Part shown: positions 19,853 to 61,393 of the stretch, piece after piece
Numbering within the stretch: position 1 is the first letter of the stretch
How the letters are laid out: the number at the start of each line of letters is the position of its first letter
NCBI RefSeq assembly: GCF_963675165.1
Contig: NC_087377.1
Location: 842,501 to 906,500 of the forward strand
From: Halichondria panicea
Taxonomy: Eukaryota > Porifera > Demospongiae > Suberitida > Halichondriidae
DNA length: 64,000 nt
Direction of reading: 5' to 3'
Position numbers and translations under genes: made by a program
Notes under the pieces: generated by a model
The model's database searches: none
Told to the model about the DNA's origin: nothing
What the model saw: only the letters and a program-made list of their open reading frames with translations

Positions 19853-21437
19853 CATAGATAGTGTAGTAAGAGGGATTGGAAACGGACCGCGATTGTCGGC
19901 CAGTCCAGGCTGCGCAGGAAGTTAATTCACTGCACCGGAAGCTAATAATAGTTTCTTCACATCACCTTGGGATGGCAGCACAGATTACAGAGCAGACAGA
20001 CAGCACATGAGACCTTGATAAGAGCTAGAGCTAAAGCTAAGAGCAGTGATGAGCATCGAAGGTATAAGTCCAAAATACCAGTCTACATTTGTATAGCTAG
20101 CTTGCTTGTCCATTTTAATATTTGTCCCTTTTAATACAGAGAAACACTCTACTGAGATCGAGAAAAGCCACTAAGCCTCTGTTTGTGAAGACGAAGGATT
20201 CAAGATATTTAGCAGTGCCAGCATCATGTAACTGCACTGACTTTGAGCAACAAAGTTGTAGCTATGAATGGATGATTTACAAGGGAAATACAATTTAATA
20301 GCTATCACTTTAGCGTATTGTGTATTCACACTCTTATACTCTTAGTGTATATAGTTCATTCGATTCATAATTATAATTATGGTTGTTTGATCACACGTAA
20401 AAAAAATAATTATGTGCATCAAATAGAAATGTAGTTAAACAATTCGAGAGGGTTCTAGCCGATTTGCTCACTCAGAAAGGCACTTGCATCAGGGAGGATG
20501 AACAGGTCTCCTACCATGTCAATGAATGATTTGACTGCAAAGGGGCGAGGGGAGTTTTAGGTTTACAATACACGTTGTATATATACGTACCTGACTGTGA
20601 ACTTCAGTCCTTGTGGCATCACTACAGCATCTTGTTGCAGCCAGTGCACTTAGCTCCTTACGGCTAGAAACCGATTTTTCCCAGTGTCCCAGTCGTCCAG
20701 GTATTCATTCTCCAACCCTATAGTATATATCACCCATGGGCAAGTAAACAAGACGGTAGTAACATAATAACGTATGACCAGTATATACATGTACATACGT
20801 CAATTTGTAATTATACATGTAGACTAAACATCACAGCTACTGCCAAAATAAGGCTTTGTTTAGTCAAATGAAGGTGTCTATTGCACAATATACAGCACTC
20901 ACTATAATAATTATAAAGGCATTTAGAAATACTCACGACAAATTATATGCCAAAGAGAGGTACGGAAAAGTGGACATAAATTTAGGTCAATTTGTCATTT
21001 TATCACCATGTTGTGAACTTTTCTTAGTACTTAGCAGGGCCAACTCAACACCATTTCATTCCTTACCTAATTCTCTATCAACAACATCATCAATCTTTAA
21101 TATTGCTTGTATAACAAAAAAGATATAGGTACAGAAAGTCATTCCAGTGTGAAAATGCCGCCAATTTCTGATATAGGACTGGTAAATAAGGTCCCAATAA
21201 ATAATAAGTATCTACATGGTAAGAGAGGCTCTAATAAATACTGCTACTAGTTTTAGTGATTTACCTTTGTCCTAGAACAGGAGAAAACCTTGTCTTTGTA
21301 TCTCTGGACGGGCGTGATTTAGCGCTTATAGCTGCGTTACGCACAGCCTGGATTGTCCACAAGGCCCCAAGTTCATTACATTGCATTGATAAGCCCACGT
21401 GATCCCGTTTCCAATCCCTCTTACTACACTATCTATG
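19853..21437. mobile_element. P-element-like DNA transposon, 1585 bp
   Basis: The termini are perfect 33-bp inverted repeats at 19,853-19,885 and 21,405-21,437 (outer end CATAGATAGTGTAGTAAGAG, inner part ending GGATTGGAAACGG). Both sides carry the 7-bp duplication gtagaag (19,846-19,852 and 21,438-21,444). P elements of Drosophila have 31-bp TIRs beginning CATGATG. The family call is supported mainly by the internal minus-strand transposase relic at 20,432-20,720. It is non-autonomous now, because that relic has stops. Confidence 0.8.
20432..20720 (-). pseudogene. P-element/THAP9-type transposase relic
   Basis: Two minus-strand exon remnants are separated by a short intron. The first (about 20,720-20,592) reads ENEYLDDWDTGKNRFLAV and ends PQGLKFTV before a gtacgt donor. 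The second (about 20,538-20,432) reads VKSFIDMVGDLFILPDASAF then LSEQIG-stop-NPLELF. In P-element and THAP9 transposases the matching region contains a GL..T..S segment followed by an LSER..QDPLE..F block, so one CAG to TAG change would explain the stop. No amino-terminal DNA-binding domain or complete DDE region is visible. The fit to the family is from recalled motifs and should be searched. Confidence 0.6.
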
Positions 21438-21908: not shown

Positions 21909-22944
21909 AGGGTTTTATAAAACAGGGAATGAGAAATGAGGAAATGAGAAATAAGAAATGAGGAAATGAGGAAATAAGAAATAGGAAATGAGGAAATGAA
22001 GAAATAAGAAATAGAATAATAATAATATATTTATGCATGGTTACGATCATCACCATGGCATTAATTTTCATCACAATAATTATGACATTATTATAATAAT
22101 AATTGCACAAAAGTAATGATTGATATCAGCCAAGAAGCTAGTAGGTGACTAAGTATTTAGTTATCAATAATATATAATTATAGTGGCACCTCCACACAGT
22201 ACAGGTTGTCGGACACATTGTAAGAATTAAATTTTACCATCGCTTCAGATGGTACAGTGAGCTTTCTTCCTTAAAGGTAGCATCAGCTTTCACTAGGCAT
22301 TGCTTGTGAGAATGGTAATGGGAATTGCTTTCTTCACCCTGTAGCGAGATTGGATATGATACCAGTACAGTGTACTAATGTCATTACTTCCTGCAGCTTT
22401 ACGACAGACTGGCAGATCATATATTAGAATTTGCTTGGTTTGACAAACAGTTTTGGAGGTTTCTTTGCTGTTACTTACATGTAGATGTTGACATTGAGTC
22501 CAGTCCATTGACTATCACTTGCCCACTGGATTGTGAAATCAGTGAATGTATTGCCAGTATAGCCACGCATAGGTAAATTGTTTGAGACTGTGGGACTGTA
22601 GGACAGTACATGTAAGTACCGTTACGTAGGTAGATCTGATGTCTGAACCATGCCAGTCGTACATGGCACACAAGTAGATAGAGGTAGGGAGTGTCACACC
22701 GTGTACCAGAGGAACATAAGTTCTGTATGGTGGCAGAGCACCAGGAGACTTGTCACCAGGAGGTACGTACCTGTAGCTCAGTAGATGTTAGCTTCGTCTT
22801 CAGACTTGCTCTGCCCATAGATATGCTCTGCCTAACAGCTCATTTCTATTTCTTATTTCTCATTTCCTATTTCTTATTTCCTCATTTCCTCATTTCCTCA
22901 TTTCTCATTTCCTCATTTCTCATTCCCTGTTTTATAACAACCCT
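21909..22944. mobile_element. Palindromic (foldback-type) element with minisatellite arms
   Basis: The arms at about 21,909-22,012 and 22,842-22,944 are inverted: both outer ends contain TTATAAAACAGGGAATGAG followed inward by repeats of gagaaatgaggaaat. It is flanked by tccatag on both sides (21,902-21,908 and 22,945-22,951), a 7-bp target duplication. The unique core of about 800 bp has minus-strand coding-like stretches (GYTGNTFTDFTIQWASDSQW at about 22,570-22,500; KQILIYDLPVCRKAAGSND at about 22,440-22,370) of unknown family, possibly captured exons. Confidence 0.75.
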
Positions 22945-23366
22945 TCCATAGATGTAGGAGAGAGGGATTGGAAACGGAAGTGGGCCTCGGAAAACATCCG
23001 CGCCTCGCTTTCTTGTCTTCTTTTCTTGCCTCAAAATGAGGAAAATTCATTGCATAAGCGGTGAAAGAAGAGGGAAAGAAACACAATCAACACAACAGTG
23101 CATTGGTGGTACATAGTAATAGTAAGGAGAATGTGCAGAGCTAGTGGTATTGGATACTTGTTTCACAGTAGATATAAAATCATCAGAGGATGCTTAGTTC
23201 CCTGAAATTGTGAATATTTGTGACTGTCAGAGGCTTCTCTTTTGCTGCCAACTTAATTAAATGAAAAAGAAAACCATCAAGAAGTCCACTAGTTTGAGGC
23301 AATAACCATGATCATTCATACGACAAGATACATAATACACCATGTAACTTTCTTAATAATAATTTA

Positions 23367-23560
23367 TTGTTTTCACTTTTGATGAATCAATTGTACTATA
23401 TAATATATATACTAGGCTGGTGAACGTACATTTCAATTTCCAATTCATTAAGTATAATTACATACACTTGGAGACAGCAAAAACACTCCACAGCACTGCC
23501 AGTTGCTTTCTAAGTGTAAAACGAGTGGGATCAAACCGAACAACATTAACAAAAACTTAC
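23367..23560 (-). pseudogene. Roco gene fragment captured inside the P-like element
   Basis: This stretch aligns on the same strand to 26,237-26,400 of the Roco exon. Both have cttttgatgaat, aattgtac, a ctggtgaNc segment, catttcaatttccNattca and the longer shared block gacagcaaaa...cactgccagttgct and gtgtaaaacgagtggga. Small indels and substitutions destroy the reading frame. Its place wholly within the TIRs of the second P-like transposon indicates transduplication of host sequence. Confidence 0.75.
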
Positions 23561-23687
23561 ACAATAAAAATGATTATTATACAGCTATAATTATGATTAG
23601 TTTAGCACTCTAATCAGACAGTCTTAGATGGAGAGAAGCTGGTGAGGTATACAAGGGTGTATATATAGCCGGAACAGCCGATAACAT

Positions 23688-23930
23688 TTACGAGGGCGGT
23701 GACGTGTAGGGGTGTAGAGAGGAGGGGTATGCTTCTGTCTTCTTTTCTTCAGCGTACTCAGTAAGTTTTGGCTTGCGAGGTATTGCTAATATAGATGAAA
23801 CAGCATTTGTAGTAGTTAAATATCTCGGGCCTACAGGCCCTTCTCCACAATCTACTACCGGGCCAATAACAATTATGAGCTCGAGGTAAAAATAGGTGAC
23901 TACACATTCATGCACACAAAAGCTATACAT
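23688..23930 (-). CDS. Short ORF inside the P-like element
   Basis: The C-terminal half of this open minus-strand frame (GPVGPRYLTTTNAVSSILAI, then PKLTEYAEEKKTEAYP, ending PSS and stop) looks more protein-like than the hydrophobic N-terminal part, so it may be a terminal exon with acceptor near 23,870. I do not recognise it. It could be another captured host exon or an element-encoded remnant. Confidence 0.3.
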   Translation of the reverse strand: MYSFCVHECVVTYFYLELIIVIGPVVDCGEGPVGPRYLTTTNAVSSILAIPRKPKLTEYAEEKKTEAYPSSLHPYTSPPS

Positions 23931-24960
23931 CCACCTGATCCAAAACTAATGCTCTTGGGGTGATCACCAATCATAAGGGAATGTATGCCTAAAATTAAAA
24001 TTTCTGTAACGCTTAGCGTATTCCCAAAAAAGGGATCTTTAGTGGTGCTCTTTAATTCAACTTTTTTCTAGCACTAAATTCTACCAGCTGATGTATGACT
24101 AATTTTCTTTGGCTTGGGGTGATACCACATGATTTACCAACAAGCATATTGAAGTATACGACCTAAACATTAATCATTTCAGAGAAAAAGGAATAAATGT
24201 GTACAATACAAGATTAAACTTACCTAAATTCAATGAAGAAGATAGTAAATAGAGCTTGAATAATGGTTATTCACTATCTATATAAAGCACAGTTGCACTC
24301 GATACTGGAAAACTTGACAGAATACTAGTGACAACTCATAAAATCCTAGATTTGCAATAATCTCAGTTACCCGCGAAGTTCCTGGGGAATAGATTAGCCC
24401 TCATTAAGCGAGGCGCGGATGTTTATCGAGGTCATATGTGAAGTACATTGAAATCTACTTCCGTTTCCAATCCCTCTCTCCTACATCTATGCTTTTTCTT
24501 AAACTGTACGCCCATTTCTTTCTTTGCTGCCTCACTATGTCTTTCTTATGATTTATGGATGAACAGTGACAACAGCAAGAAAAAGTAAGGCCTGGGAACG
24601 AGGCTAGCTCTAGCTCTAGCTCTGATCATGAAGAAGCTGCAACTGAAGTGATCCTGTACCCAACAACAATGGTAAAGGGTCACTAAACTAGAAAGCTGGA
24701 AATGAAATTTTATAAAAATAGAAGGTGGTAATAACTATAATCAAACACAGAACACAGAGCATTATAATAGTCAGTACTTATAGTCAACACAGAGTTCTTG
24801 CATGCTTCTTTACTTGACATCTTTATTCGTCCCTTTCAAGCAACTCCAGTATCTGTATGAAGCATGAGCACAGCATAATCAACCAAAGCTATAGAGAACA
24901 AAACATTAGATTAGACTACAATCAGATTACAAACACACGTACCTTGTCAGGTTATCATGA

Positions 24961-27900
24961 TCAATTGGTGGCACTATGAGCAACTGCAGTTGCTGTCCTC
25001 ACATACTTGTCTTCAATTTCCTCGGCTACATCGTTACGCTCAACAGTAGGCCTCCTTAGACATTCACATATGTAAGGCCATGTCATCGGTGGATGAGTGA
25101 CTTCAAGACGCTTGGCTACTATCATCGTTAGGCGGCACACATTATCTGTGCTACGATCTCGAATATTTTCCAACTCGTAAAACTTCACCCCGAGAGCCAG
25201 TCCCAAGTTGAACCAATCCTTGCTGGCACTTCTCAGATTCTCACAAATTGTTAGAATATCATCTCCAGTCAGAACCGACGACTGTTGTTGTGCAATTTCT
25301 ACTGTTTGGTTTCTGCTAGTAGGCTCCTCTTGTGACGATCCTACACACACACACACACACACACACAAGTACATATTGCATTGAAAATGGCCAGTTTTAT
25401 GACAAACTGCAATACAGTAAGCATCTGAAAATGCACAATAATTACGATAATTATAGCAAATTAATGGGGAATGCCAGGACTGTAGGAATCAAGATCATGT
25501 ATTTTCCAGACTGAAGGTTTCCGATTATGATAGATGGAATTATGATAAGAGCTTTGTTTAAGTAAGATAGACCTAGGAGCTAACATTATTGTCCGAAGCT
25601 GGCTTATATTCTGAACACCTTTTACTTGTGTAATGCTGAAATGGCTCACACTAAAATGTATGGTAAATAGAATTGGACAGTTGTAAGAGTTCTGTTGTCA
25701 TTGTGGGGCAGAGGAAGTAAACAATGTGTACATTGGTTACATGGTTACATGTATGTAAAGTTTTAATACATGTGTAAGTATAGATGATAAAAGTAATGGG
25801 AGTAATTACTTGTGTAATGCTGAAATGGCTCACACTAAAATGTAAAATGTATGGTAAATAGAATTGAATTTTATAATTAAAAAGTAATGGGAGTAATTGA
25901 GATCTTACCTTCCAGTTTATTACAAGCAGAGAGCCAATCTTTGTGACCGTCTTCTAGCTGATACGTCTTCTTGAATAGAGTACACCTCATAACATCGTCC
26001 TCAGCCAGCACACGAGCTGGGTGGTGGGGCACTTGGGGACTTGGACTAGAGATAGATTGAGATATGCAGGGACACAAAAACGCAACTTCAGGATCCTCAT
26101 ACGTGTATTTCAGGGCTTTGTAAGCAGATCGAAGACCAGAGTGAATATTTTCAAATATCAATGACAAAATTGTTTTTCGATTATTGGTGGAATGAATTTC
26201 GAGCATTGAAAACCCGTCAATTAGCGTGACAGTACAGTTTCGCTTTTGATGAATAAATTGTACAAAATTTCTACTCGGCTGGTGATCCTCCATTTCAATT
26301 TCCCATTCACATTCTTTAATCAAGTACACTTGTAGACAGCAAAACACTCCACAGCACTGCCAGTTGCTTTTGAAGTGTAAAACGAGTGGGATTAAATTAG
26401 TCTTCAGCAAATCAGCTCGTTTGTCATTGACTTGAGTTGGTGGGAGCAAGGATAGAAGTGATGGCATATAGAAACGCTTATCTTGCCCTCGTGAGAATAA
26501 ACGAAATGGGGTGGCTATCAGCAAGTGCTTGAATATTTCAATCAAATCGATGGGTGCAAAGAGTCCATCGATATAATGCTTTTCAAAATTCTTATCAGAT
26601 AAAAGTTCAATCGTAATAATTCCTTTATCGGTAAATTTTAACCAGTCTCCTAACCCGTGTATTGGAGTGTTACTTCCTCGCACGTATGCAGCATACTCGA
26701 CAAGCTCTGTTACTTTATCGAGAAGCACTTGAGTATCACAGAATACCACATTTGATAGAATGGCAGGATAATAGTGAAAGATGTGATGCTCATGGAAGAA
26801 TTTCAAAGCTTCACAAAGTGCATCTTCGTGAAAATTATGTAGCGTTTTTGCAATTTCTACACATTCGGTCTTGCTTAGAACTTTTCTGTTTTCATCGTTG
26901 GAAACCTTCTCGACAATAATTTCCAAAATAAACCACCAAAAAGGGACAAGGATTTCAATATTCAACTCTTGAGATAGTTTATGAACATATTCACGAATTG
27001 TCTTTGCCACTTCCTTACTGTCAGGATCGCAGTGTTTGCAATCTACAGGAAATATAATCTCTTTCGTTATACCCAAATTGAAAAACATAGTCAACTTCTT
27101 AATGCAGTCTTTCTCCGCAAAATTCAACAACGTTTTATTCTTGTCAGATAATGTTTCTTTGCATTCAGATTGATGGTCTTTGTGAGTACCAATGCATACC
27201 AGCTTGCAGTTTTCACTATGAGATTGAATTGACTGCACGAGATACTTGAAGTTATCCAAAACTGAGAGATGTGACTTGAAACCTTCACCAACTGGCTTAT
27301 TGTCCTTGTAGTATTCAACCAGTGGATGATCGTCAAGGCAGTCAGAGAGACGAAGAATGTACAAAGCTACAGAAATCTTGGGCATGAAGAGTGGCAGTAG
27401 ATTATGAAAGTGTGGTTGCCCACCGCTATCGATTATGTAGATCCAATGAGATCCAAACTTTTCTTGAACAGCAGTACGATCAGCATCAGAAAATCGCTGA
27501 ATATTCGCCATTACATTTGAAACAGTGCTAAGAAATTTACTCTTTTTTCCTTCTAGCTTACTAGTTAAATTTGCTCCAGCTACTGATGGTTCAGTCGCTC
27601 TTAAAGTCGGAGGAGTTGCATCAACTGGCATATCGAATTCGTTGCTAGGTTCAAGTTGCTTCAGAGCAATGCTGACTTCTTGTGGGATAGCAGATGCTTT
27701 AGAGTTAGGATCTGAGCTGGTTACATGAGATTTAATAGCATCAGCAACAATGCGTTGTAGGTCATCACTAGATACTGGTTTCCATGGTCTAGAGGGATCT
27801 TCTTGAGCTTCCATTTTTATCTTTGTAGTGTCACGAATTTGTCGAATACATATCCTCTCTGCTGTGCTAGCTAATGGAGTGCTATTTCGATCTACAGGAG

Positions 27901-28050
27901 GAGGCAGTCCCAGAAGGAGATGCTTAGTGGAGGTTTTACCAGTGCCCGCCATTCCAAAGAATAAGATATTGGTAGTGTTCACACGGACAAATCCAGCCTT
28001 CATGGCTTCATTAAGAGCTTGCTCAGACTTAGATGATTCATCATTGAGGG
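24961..28050 (-). CDS. Roco-family GTPase with COR region and C-terminal death domain
   Basis: A long minus-strand exon, 28,050-25,909, is joined in phase (GAA G / GA TCG) to a terminal exon 25,340-24,961 ending TGA. The Ras-of-complex GTPase shows the P-loop GMAGTGKTS in NILFFGMAGTGKTSTKHLLL, switch II DSGGQPHFHNLLPLF and the base-recognition motif CIGTHKD. The COR region follows, ending in a cysteine-containing AFLCPC stretch typical of invertebrate COR proteins. The last exon begins with a Gln/Ser linker and ends in a death domain: DWFNLGLALGVKFYELENI, TWPYICECLRRPTV and a final IEDKY. Roco proteins are GTP-regulated scaffolds that dimerise through COR; the death domain suggests coupling to death-fold signalling. 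No kinase or LRR is seen. Acceptor ctattatttcag at 28,051 fits best; upstream exons are not identified. Phase would allow splicing from the SH3 exons at 29,322, but the 1.3 kb gap makes this unproven. No internal stop was seen. Confidence 0.85.
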
Positions 28051-28123
28051 CTGAAATAATAGGAATACAGACTGAAACCTGAAACACAGTATATACTCGA
28101 CTATGTACCCTTGTGTGAGTCAC

Positions 28124-29321
28124 GTACTTCCCTTGAAAAGGTACCCACTACGTATGTACAGTAACAGTAACTTTCTCACAGTTCATATACAAAAACAAGT
28201 CATCTGTATACACAGCAGGAGCGCATGGATATTCATCATTTCTTTAATATTACTTTTTCATTTCCCTTGTTAGTATTATGATGATATCAAGTGATGAATG
28301 AAATGGTTCACTGTCAATAAAGTGAGCGTGTGTTGTAATACTCATGATATTAATGAATCATAAAACAAAGTATACACATGCATGAAGTCCATGCAGCAAT
28401 CTAACAATGACCACACGATAATTGAATACAATGTACACTAGTCTCACTTGCTTTACGCTATAATTATAGGCAAGCTATGAAGTTGCTTTGTTCTCAGATT
28501 CCTTGTGTCCTGATATTGCTGATTCAGTCACAGTTTCACCCGTTTATATGATCGTACAACAAATTTATGAATAAAACAAAATTAGAGTTTTTCTGTTAAT
28601 TGTGCAAAAACGCTAATGCAAACAGTACGGGGAACTTTATTCTGATGGCTACTGTATATATGTTATTATATACTCATGCAAGAGGCTAATACAACTAGAG
28701 CTAGAGGCATGCTGACGCTTTTGAGAATGGAATTTTAGTAGTGTATGAGAACATGCATTATGGACTAAGTCAGCAAAGAAGACTGGAGTCTTGGACATAA
28801 CTATGGCTCTTCTGGGGCTATAGGATCAGGATAAGCAAAGAAGCAACAATCACAATTATAATTATAGTGATCCTTTTTTCATTCTTCTTGGCACGGGATC
28901 ACTTAACAGTAAAAACGTACCTCGAATAAAGGACGCGTGTAGCTAGCTAGCCATGCAGCGGAAGTTCCGTTTTTGCTTGCTTATATTCAACAACAAAGCT
29001 TTAACGCCTTAACACAACTTGTTGTGTGAAGACTATCTATGCTGTTGACGCAGTGCCATGAAGCCTACTATATACATGACTATACAATGATTGATCATGC
29101 ATAAATATATAATATACATGCAATGCAATATTCAACACAGACGACATAATAATTATATAACTTTAATACAGCAACCCTAATCCGCACTATTATTATAAGA
29201 AGGTGAATGACATAAAGTAATCCAATATATCAGGAGAATATTGACTTGGGCACTACAAATGATATAGAAAACCTCCCATAGTACAGTGTGTGTGCGTGTG
29301 CGTGCAATGTCAAGTTCTTAC
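28124..29321. other. Non-coding interval with a dispersed repeat
   Basis: No exon could be supported. About 28,250-28,690 resembles 32,555-33,060 (shared phrases include gtgatgaatgaaatggttcac, gtcaataaagtga and ggaactttattctga), so a roughly 450-500 bp dispersed repeat is present twice in the window. The rest is AT-rich. Confidence 0.6.
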
Positions 29322-61360: not shown

Positions 61361-61393
61361 CATAGATAGTATAGAGGAGAGAGATTGGAAACG
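61361..61393. mobile_element. Single P-like terminus abutting the satellite
   Basis: The outer phrase catagatagtatagaggaga and then gagattggaaacg match the left TIR of the P-like elements at 19,853 and 22,947. No inverted partner is seen before the satellite resumes at 62,358, so the element is truncated on its right. Confidence 0.65.

Follow-up and report, generated by a model that had tools for sequence, protein, structure and literature searches.

The 64,000-nucleotide stretch of the Halichondria panicea genome analysed here (NCBI RefSeq assembly GCF_963675165.1, contig NC_087377.1, positions 842,501 to 906,500 of the forward strand; hereafter the window, whose own numbering is used throughout) contains a short transposon with terminal inverted repeats (TIRs) that encloses a decayed piece of a coding exon. 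A homologous gene segment lies about 2.7 kb from this fragment, which is oriented in the same way as the adjoining gene. The comparisons discussed below show that the fragment is carried by a whole transposon family, which most likely took it up once and from elsewhere. The element consists of the following parts.

22947..24491, + strand: element of 1545 bp, assigned to the P superfamily and non-autonomous, recognised by its TIRs and genome copies; window member of a family in which at least 55 loci bear the fragment
22947..22981, + strand: left TIR, 35 nt, the perfect complement of 24457-24491
24457..24491, - strand: right TIR, 35 nt, 100% complementary to the left TIR
22985..23010, + strand: left inner (subterminal) inverted repeat, 26 nt, 92% with the right inner repeat
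24406..24431, - strand: right inner (subterminal) inverted repeat, 26 nt, 92% with the left inner repeat
23371..23538, - strand: putative captured coding-exon fragment, decayed, gene sense on the - strand; 23371-23535 by BLAST, end near 23538 by eye in the alignment

Comparison of the element with the window by BLASTN aligned 23371-23535 with 26238-26396 at 82.4% over 165 columns, on the same strand (E = 5.6e-42), and 23367-23560 scored 164 bits against 24900-28200, compared with 28.3 for the best of 200 dinucleotide shuffles. The degenerate gene copy that an initial annotation had placed inside the TIRs is thus real. The interval given for it, 23367-23560, is correct in essence and too wide at both ends: it starts about 4 bases too early and, the match reaching about 23538 in the multiple alignment, ends about 20 bases too far.

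The longest stop-to-stop frame inside the element is 85 codons and no transposase frame is present; because it has no transposase gene of its own, the element is a non-autonomous member of its superfamily. An Rfam scan of 22900-24600 gave 0 matches at the gathering threshold. A second captured gene was also considered, as a 60-residue frame of the element returned 89 matches, all of which were placed by eye at or near the TIRs or the fragment of this same family, and no separate donor was seen.

A DNA search of the genome with the whole element produced 158 first-look candidates, the best 40 of which were scored and are not a random sample. The alignment comprises 39 fetched copies with their flanks and the window copy (40 in total), and the mean substitution divergence of the 40 best-scored copies from the family majority is 0.98%, indels not being counted. 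Other copies also hold the fragment, a question that the initial annotation had raised: 38 of the 40 aligned copies keep at least 140 fragment bases, in L066 90 remain, and L067 aligns over a piece that begins to the right of the fragment. The source segment was also used in a protein search, which scored 150 of 189 candidates and is the basis of the locus and paralogue counts given here; by a hand count, at least 55 loci match in the fragment part only, 34 of the 55 with in-frame stops, and L034, which has the fragment too, is absent from this list.

Among 43 sequences examined for target duplications, both TIR ends are present in 27, and 22 of these have an exact 7-bp duplication. The 22 duplications represent 19 different words, strand ignored; L053 and L055 have flanks in common and are possible segmental duplicates. 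The family is young and recently amplified, and its amplification proceeded by transposition with 7-bp target duplications. In addition, L045, L047, L053 and L055 lie next to sequence that looks like the terminus of a different P-like family (CATAGATAGTAGAGG).

On sequence grounds, the element belongs to the P superfamily because it combines exact 7-bp duplications with a TIR core common to an element that encodes a P-type transposase. Most duplication words (19/22) start with GT or finish with AC, and one of the 22 does both. The TIR core, AGGGATTGGAAACGG, occurs at 588 sites in the genome, versus 0 for the control, and among the core sites listed, all on C1, it precedes the transposase domain by 1732 bp in three copies, L070-L072. 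The P-type transposase domain PF21787 has 46 matches in the genome. Eight of the copies that encode it, L070-L077, form one P element family, and over 3.4 kb most of them have 99.9-100% identity, which suggests that this element was probably active recently. Its two frames match TNP-like_RNaseH_N PF21787 (5.2e-25) and TNP-like_GBD PF21788 (5.1e-13), and a PF12017 match is weak, at 0.033, under the cut-off. Its left end reads CATAGATAAAAGAGAGAGAGGGATTGGAAACGG and that of the studied element CATAGATGTAGGAGAGAGGGATTGGAAACGG, with the CATAGAT start and the GAGAGGGATTGGAAACGG core common to both.

The gene adjoining the element is represented in the window by three features.

25880..28147, - strand: large open exon of the adjoining paralogue, 756 codons stop to stop, encoding a P-loop-like protein whose Roc identity is not established
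26238..26396, - strand: exon segment homologous to the fragment by BLAST and alignment, not its nearest relative
24961..25488, - strand: downstream stop-to-stop open reading frame (ORF), assumed to be part of the same gene, with weak Death-domain similarity; its true exon start probably lies near 25350

The exon is part of a family in which 25 loci are close, with protein identities of 76-100% (one of these loci gave two separate matches). About 65 further matches are remote: their identity is 27-43%, they cover a large part or the whole of the 132-residue query, and they lie mostly within open frames of about 500-860 codons. This appears to be an expanded family of P-loop-like proteins (window 25880-28147 and its relatives), with many loci on C1, C10 and C13. 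The name Roco, which the gene had been given at the outset, is not established by the profile searches, whose matches are all sub-threshold. Pfam gave no domain at 0.001 for the window exon. Among ten paralogues, the Roc profile matched four (best E = 0.11) and it did not match the window protein, unrelated families scored as high as Roc or higher (DUF5585, 0.0099), and the COR domain had no match. The Death match in the downstream ORF has E = 0.095 and 13.3 bits versus a cut-off of 22.6, and searches of the PDB with the source protein returned nothing relevant. P-loop, DSGGQ and THKD motifs were noticed by eye in the source protein. The source gene is possibly a Roco gene.

The sequence comparisons indicate that the transfer went from gene to transposon, because the remote paralogues align past both fragment ends, while the transposon loci match in the middle only. 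The remote matches at 27-43% also point to an old coding sequence, which argues for the same direction. The reverse process, in which the gene family acquired the segment by exonisation of transposon sequence, draws on the fact that shared sequence by itself gives no direction, but it is very unlikely in view of those remote matches, most of them inside long open frames, and of the in-frame stops in 34 of the 55 transposon matches.

The initial annotation regarded the adjoining gene as the likely donor, and this assignment was not borne out when 20 of the 25 close paralogues were compared with the family majority and the window copy. The nearest paralogue to the majority is L011 (C1:1267257) at 89.9%, closer by about 6 of 159 positions than the window gene, which at 86.2% is joint second with L010, L012 and L013. 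In the tree, the seven transposon rows form one clade (support 93), grouped with L011 and L013 (94). Local capture of 26238-26396 from the adjoining gene, or gene conversion with it, would explain why the fragment and the gene segment lie on the same strand and 2.7 kb apart, but the fragment is found genome-wide in other copies of the family, and the window copy (84.8%) is no closer to the neighbour than the majority is, its best match again being L011 (86.7%). Furthermore, in a model of uniform placement, which ignores gene clustering, a set of 55 copies has a probability of 0.064 of including one within 2.9 kb of any of 25 paralogues; with 100 sites (close plus remote relatives, rounded up) the probability rises to 0.22. 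The closeness of the window element to a paralogue thus appears to be a coincidence, and local capture or conversion is highly improbable. Of the original proposal, a P-like transposon with a captured gene part, the P-superfamily element and its gene-derived piece stand, and the local or recent event does not.

The comparisons instead make a single capture, predating the amplification and not from the neighbour, the most likely course, because the transposon rows form one clade, the fragment is present in each of the diverged relatives L099-L103 (identity with the majority about 75-96%), the junctions agree and L011 is nearest. Among the rows of the majority, the window copy and L099-L102, the right junction is identical and the left junctions coincide to within a few bases.

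Within the transposon, the fragment looks like a passenger, and no coding capacity is evident in it. Between the majority and L102, 18 of 159 fragment positions are changed (11.3%) compared with 60 of 1280 in the left and right parts together (P = 0.0023; 6.3% on the left and 4.0% on the right separately), and between the majority and L100 the values are 16/142 (11.3%) for the fragment and 24/334 (7.2%) for the left part. Divergence within the family is 1.51% in the fragment, versus 1.34% in the left part (P = 0.36) and 0.71% in the right part (P = 3.5e-9). No sign of constraint or selection on the fragment was found in these comparisons within the family and with L102 and L100. One could suppose that the fragment functions through small RNAs, with transcripts through the element targeting the whole gene family, as each of the 20 paralogues compared matches the family majority exactly over stretches of 26-47 nt. 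However, these stretches are explicable by conservation of the gene segment, and the fragment is no better conserved in the transposon than its surroundings, so that this function is improbable. Antisense or chimeric transcripts acting on the adjoining gene, which the initial annotation had suggested, are a hypothetical effect; the fragment has the orientation of that gene. The broader proposal, that a high-copy P-superfamily Pack-TIR (a TIR transposon with non-transposable element (non-TE) sequence inside it) would be a genome-wide small-RNA source against an expanded, possibly immune-type gene family, is a shade less probable still.

The best explanation overall, and a very probable one, is a single old capture by a P-superfamily element, followed by amplification as a multicopy Pack-TIR, with the neighbouring gene close by chance. 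A non-autonomous P-superfamily element would have gained about 165 bp of coding exon once, before the recent amplification, from a donor paralogue that, to judge from the tree, resembled the C1:1267257 gene. Following published models, the fragment probably entered by a template switch while a break or gap in an ancestral element was under repair. A P-type transposase that recognises the TIR core would then have moved the composite in trans; the sharing of this core is observed, and the mobilisation is deduced from it. Transposition with 7-bp target duplications spread the composite and made it a multicopy Pack-TIR, whose window copy probably came by chance to lie about 470 bp beyond the downstream ORF of another paralogue.

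Several observations weigh against this history. An exact 7-bp duplication is lacking in 5 of the 27 copies with both ends, including the window copy, whose flanks, ACCCTTC and CTTTTTC, differ at 4 of 7 positions and form no matching duplication. This lack would suit an older gene duplicate that happens to lie between TIRs, or around which the element inserted, but elements built in this way are found at many places, bordered by differing 7-bp duplications, which makes either case extremely unlikely. The fragment was not seen to extend past the TIRs in any copy examined in this genome, an outcome that the initial annotation had tied to an older duplicate. The single-capture history is further weakened by the tree, which is built from about 165 columns and has some low supports (77 for L013 with the transposon rows), and by the comparison with the transposase-encoding element, which covers the left end of that element. 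No transposase-encoding element with an identical 35-nt TIR was found, one long TIR pair (L098) having been read whole; L098 (C7:2751756-2756733), considered as an autonomous parent with identical TIRs, is a family copy broken by insertions and has no transposase. Nor was a clean pre-capture element found among the 40 of 121 candidates scored in the relevant search. The relatives read were L099-L103, with the fragment, and L105 (C5:6066560-6066960), without it. The last was rejected as a pre-capture element, as its left part belongs to this family up to near the junction and its right part to another TIR family (43 matches including L105), so that it is a chimera.

The chimeric P-like structure, with a left part of this family and a right part of another, is present both at L105 and at C5:6066190, and the L105 chimera suggests that such elements recombine. 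Other P-like sequences occur in the window itself. A second P-like element lies at 19857-21434, with the TIR CATAGATAGTGTAGTAAGAGGGATTGGAAACGG and many genome copies, several of them full length at 86-99%, and a lone P-like TIR, CATAGATAGTATAGAGGAGAGAGATTGGAAACG, lies at 61361-61393, with no partner noticed in the window.

Plant Pack-MULEs and Pack-TYPE elements belong to superfamilies other than P. They are non-autonomous TIR elements with gene pieces, like the family described here, in plant hosts (PMC8903248). Within the P superfamily, Galileo is described as having 7-bp duplications with the consensus GTANTAC, whereas most P insertions are of 8 bp, and many Galileo copies are without transposase segments (PMC4168063). 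The present family resembles Galileo in its 7-bp target duplications; its TIRs are of 35 nt plus an inner repeat, unlike the long TIRs of Galileo, and its GT/AC ends are mostly one-sided.

The initial annotation had considered gene capture to be unfamiliar for P-type elements of animals. This view was contradicted by Tan et al. 2021 (PMC8277862), who cite two mechanisms of capture by the Drosophila P element, end bypass and gap repair (Tsubota and Huong 1991; Gloor et al. 1991). As in those cases, foreign sequence was apparently acquired here by a P-type element, and the sponge case differs from the experimental Drosophila captures cited there in being an old natural capture that spread through a family. 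The same paper reports 370 Pack-TIRs in 100 animal genomes, 323 of the 370 being hAT or TcMariner, and describes four multicopy Pack-TIRs in reference genomes, together with Ssk-FB4 in fly populations; the frog example has three copies, and among the multicopy cases described there are a hAT element and the MULE-like FB4.

The sponge family has the features of the animal Pack-TIRs of PMC8277862: non-TE gene sequence between the TIRs, an identifiable parental gene family with its copy elsewhere and, as in multicopy cases, distinct duplications. Gene capture in animal TIR elements has thus been described already, and what stands out here is that a P-type element is multicopy, with the fragment at 55 loci or more; a multicopy P-type Pack-TIR was not recognised among the titles and abstracts returned by literature searches. 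The family appears to be a clear natural P-type capture of a gene fragment with large amplification, for which the parental gene family and the likely transposase source are found in one assembly, and the family-wide view corrects the tempting reading of a local donor. Compared with the hAT and MULE-like multicopy cases of PMC8277862, it differs in both the number of its loci and its P-type element, and a P-type family this large would extend the range of such elements known in animals.
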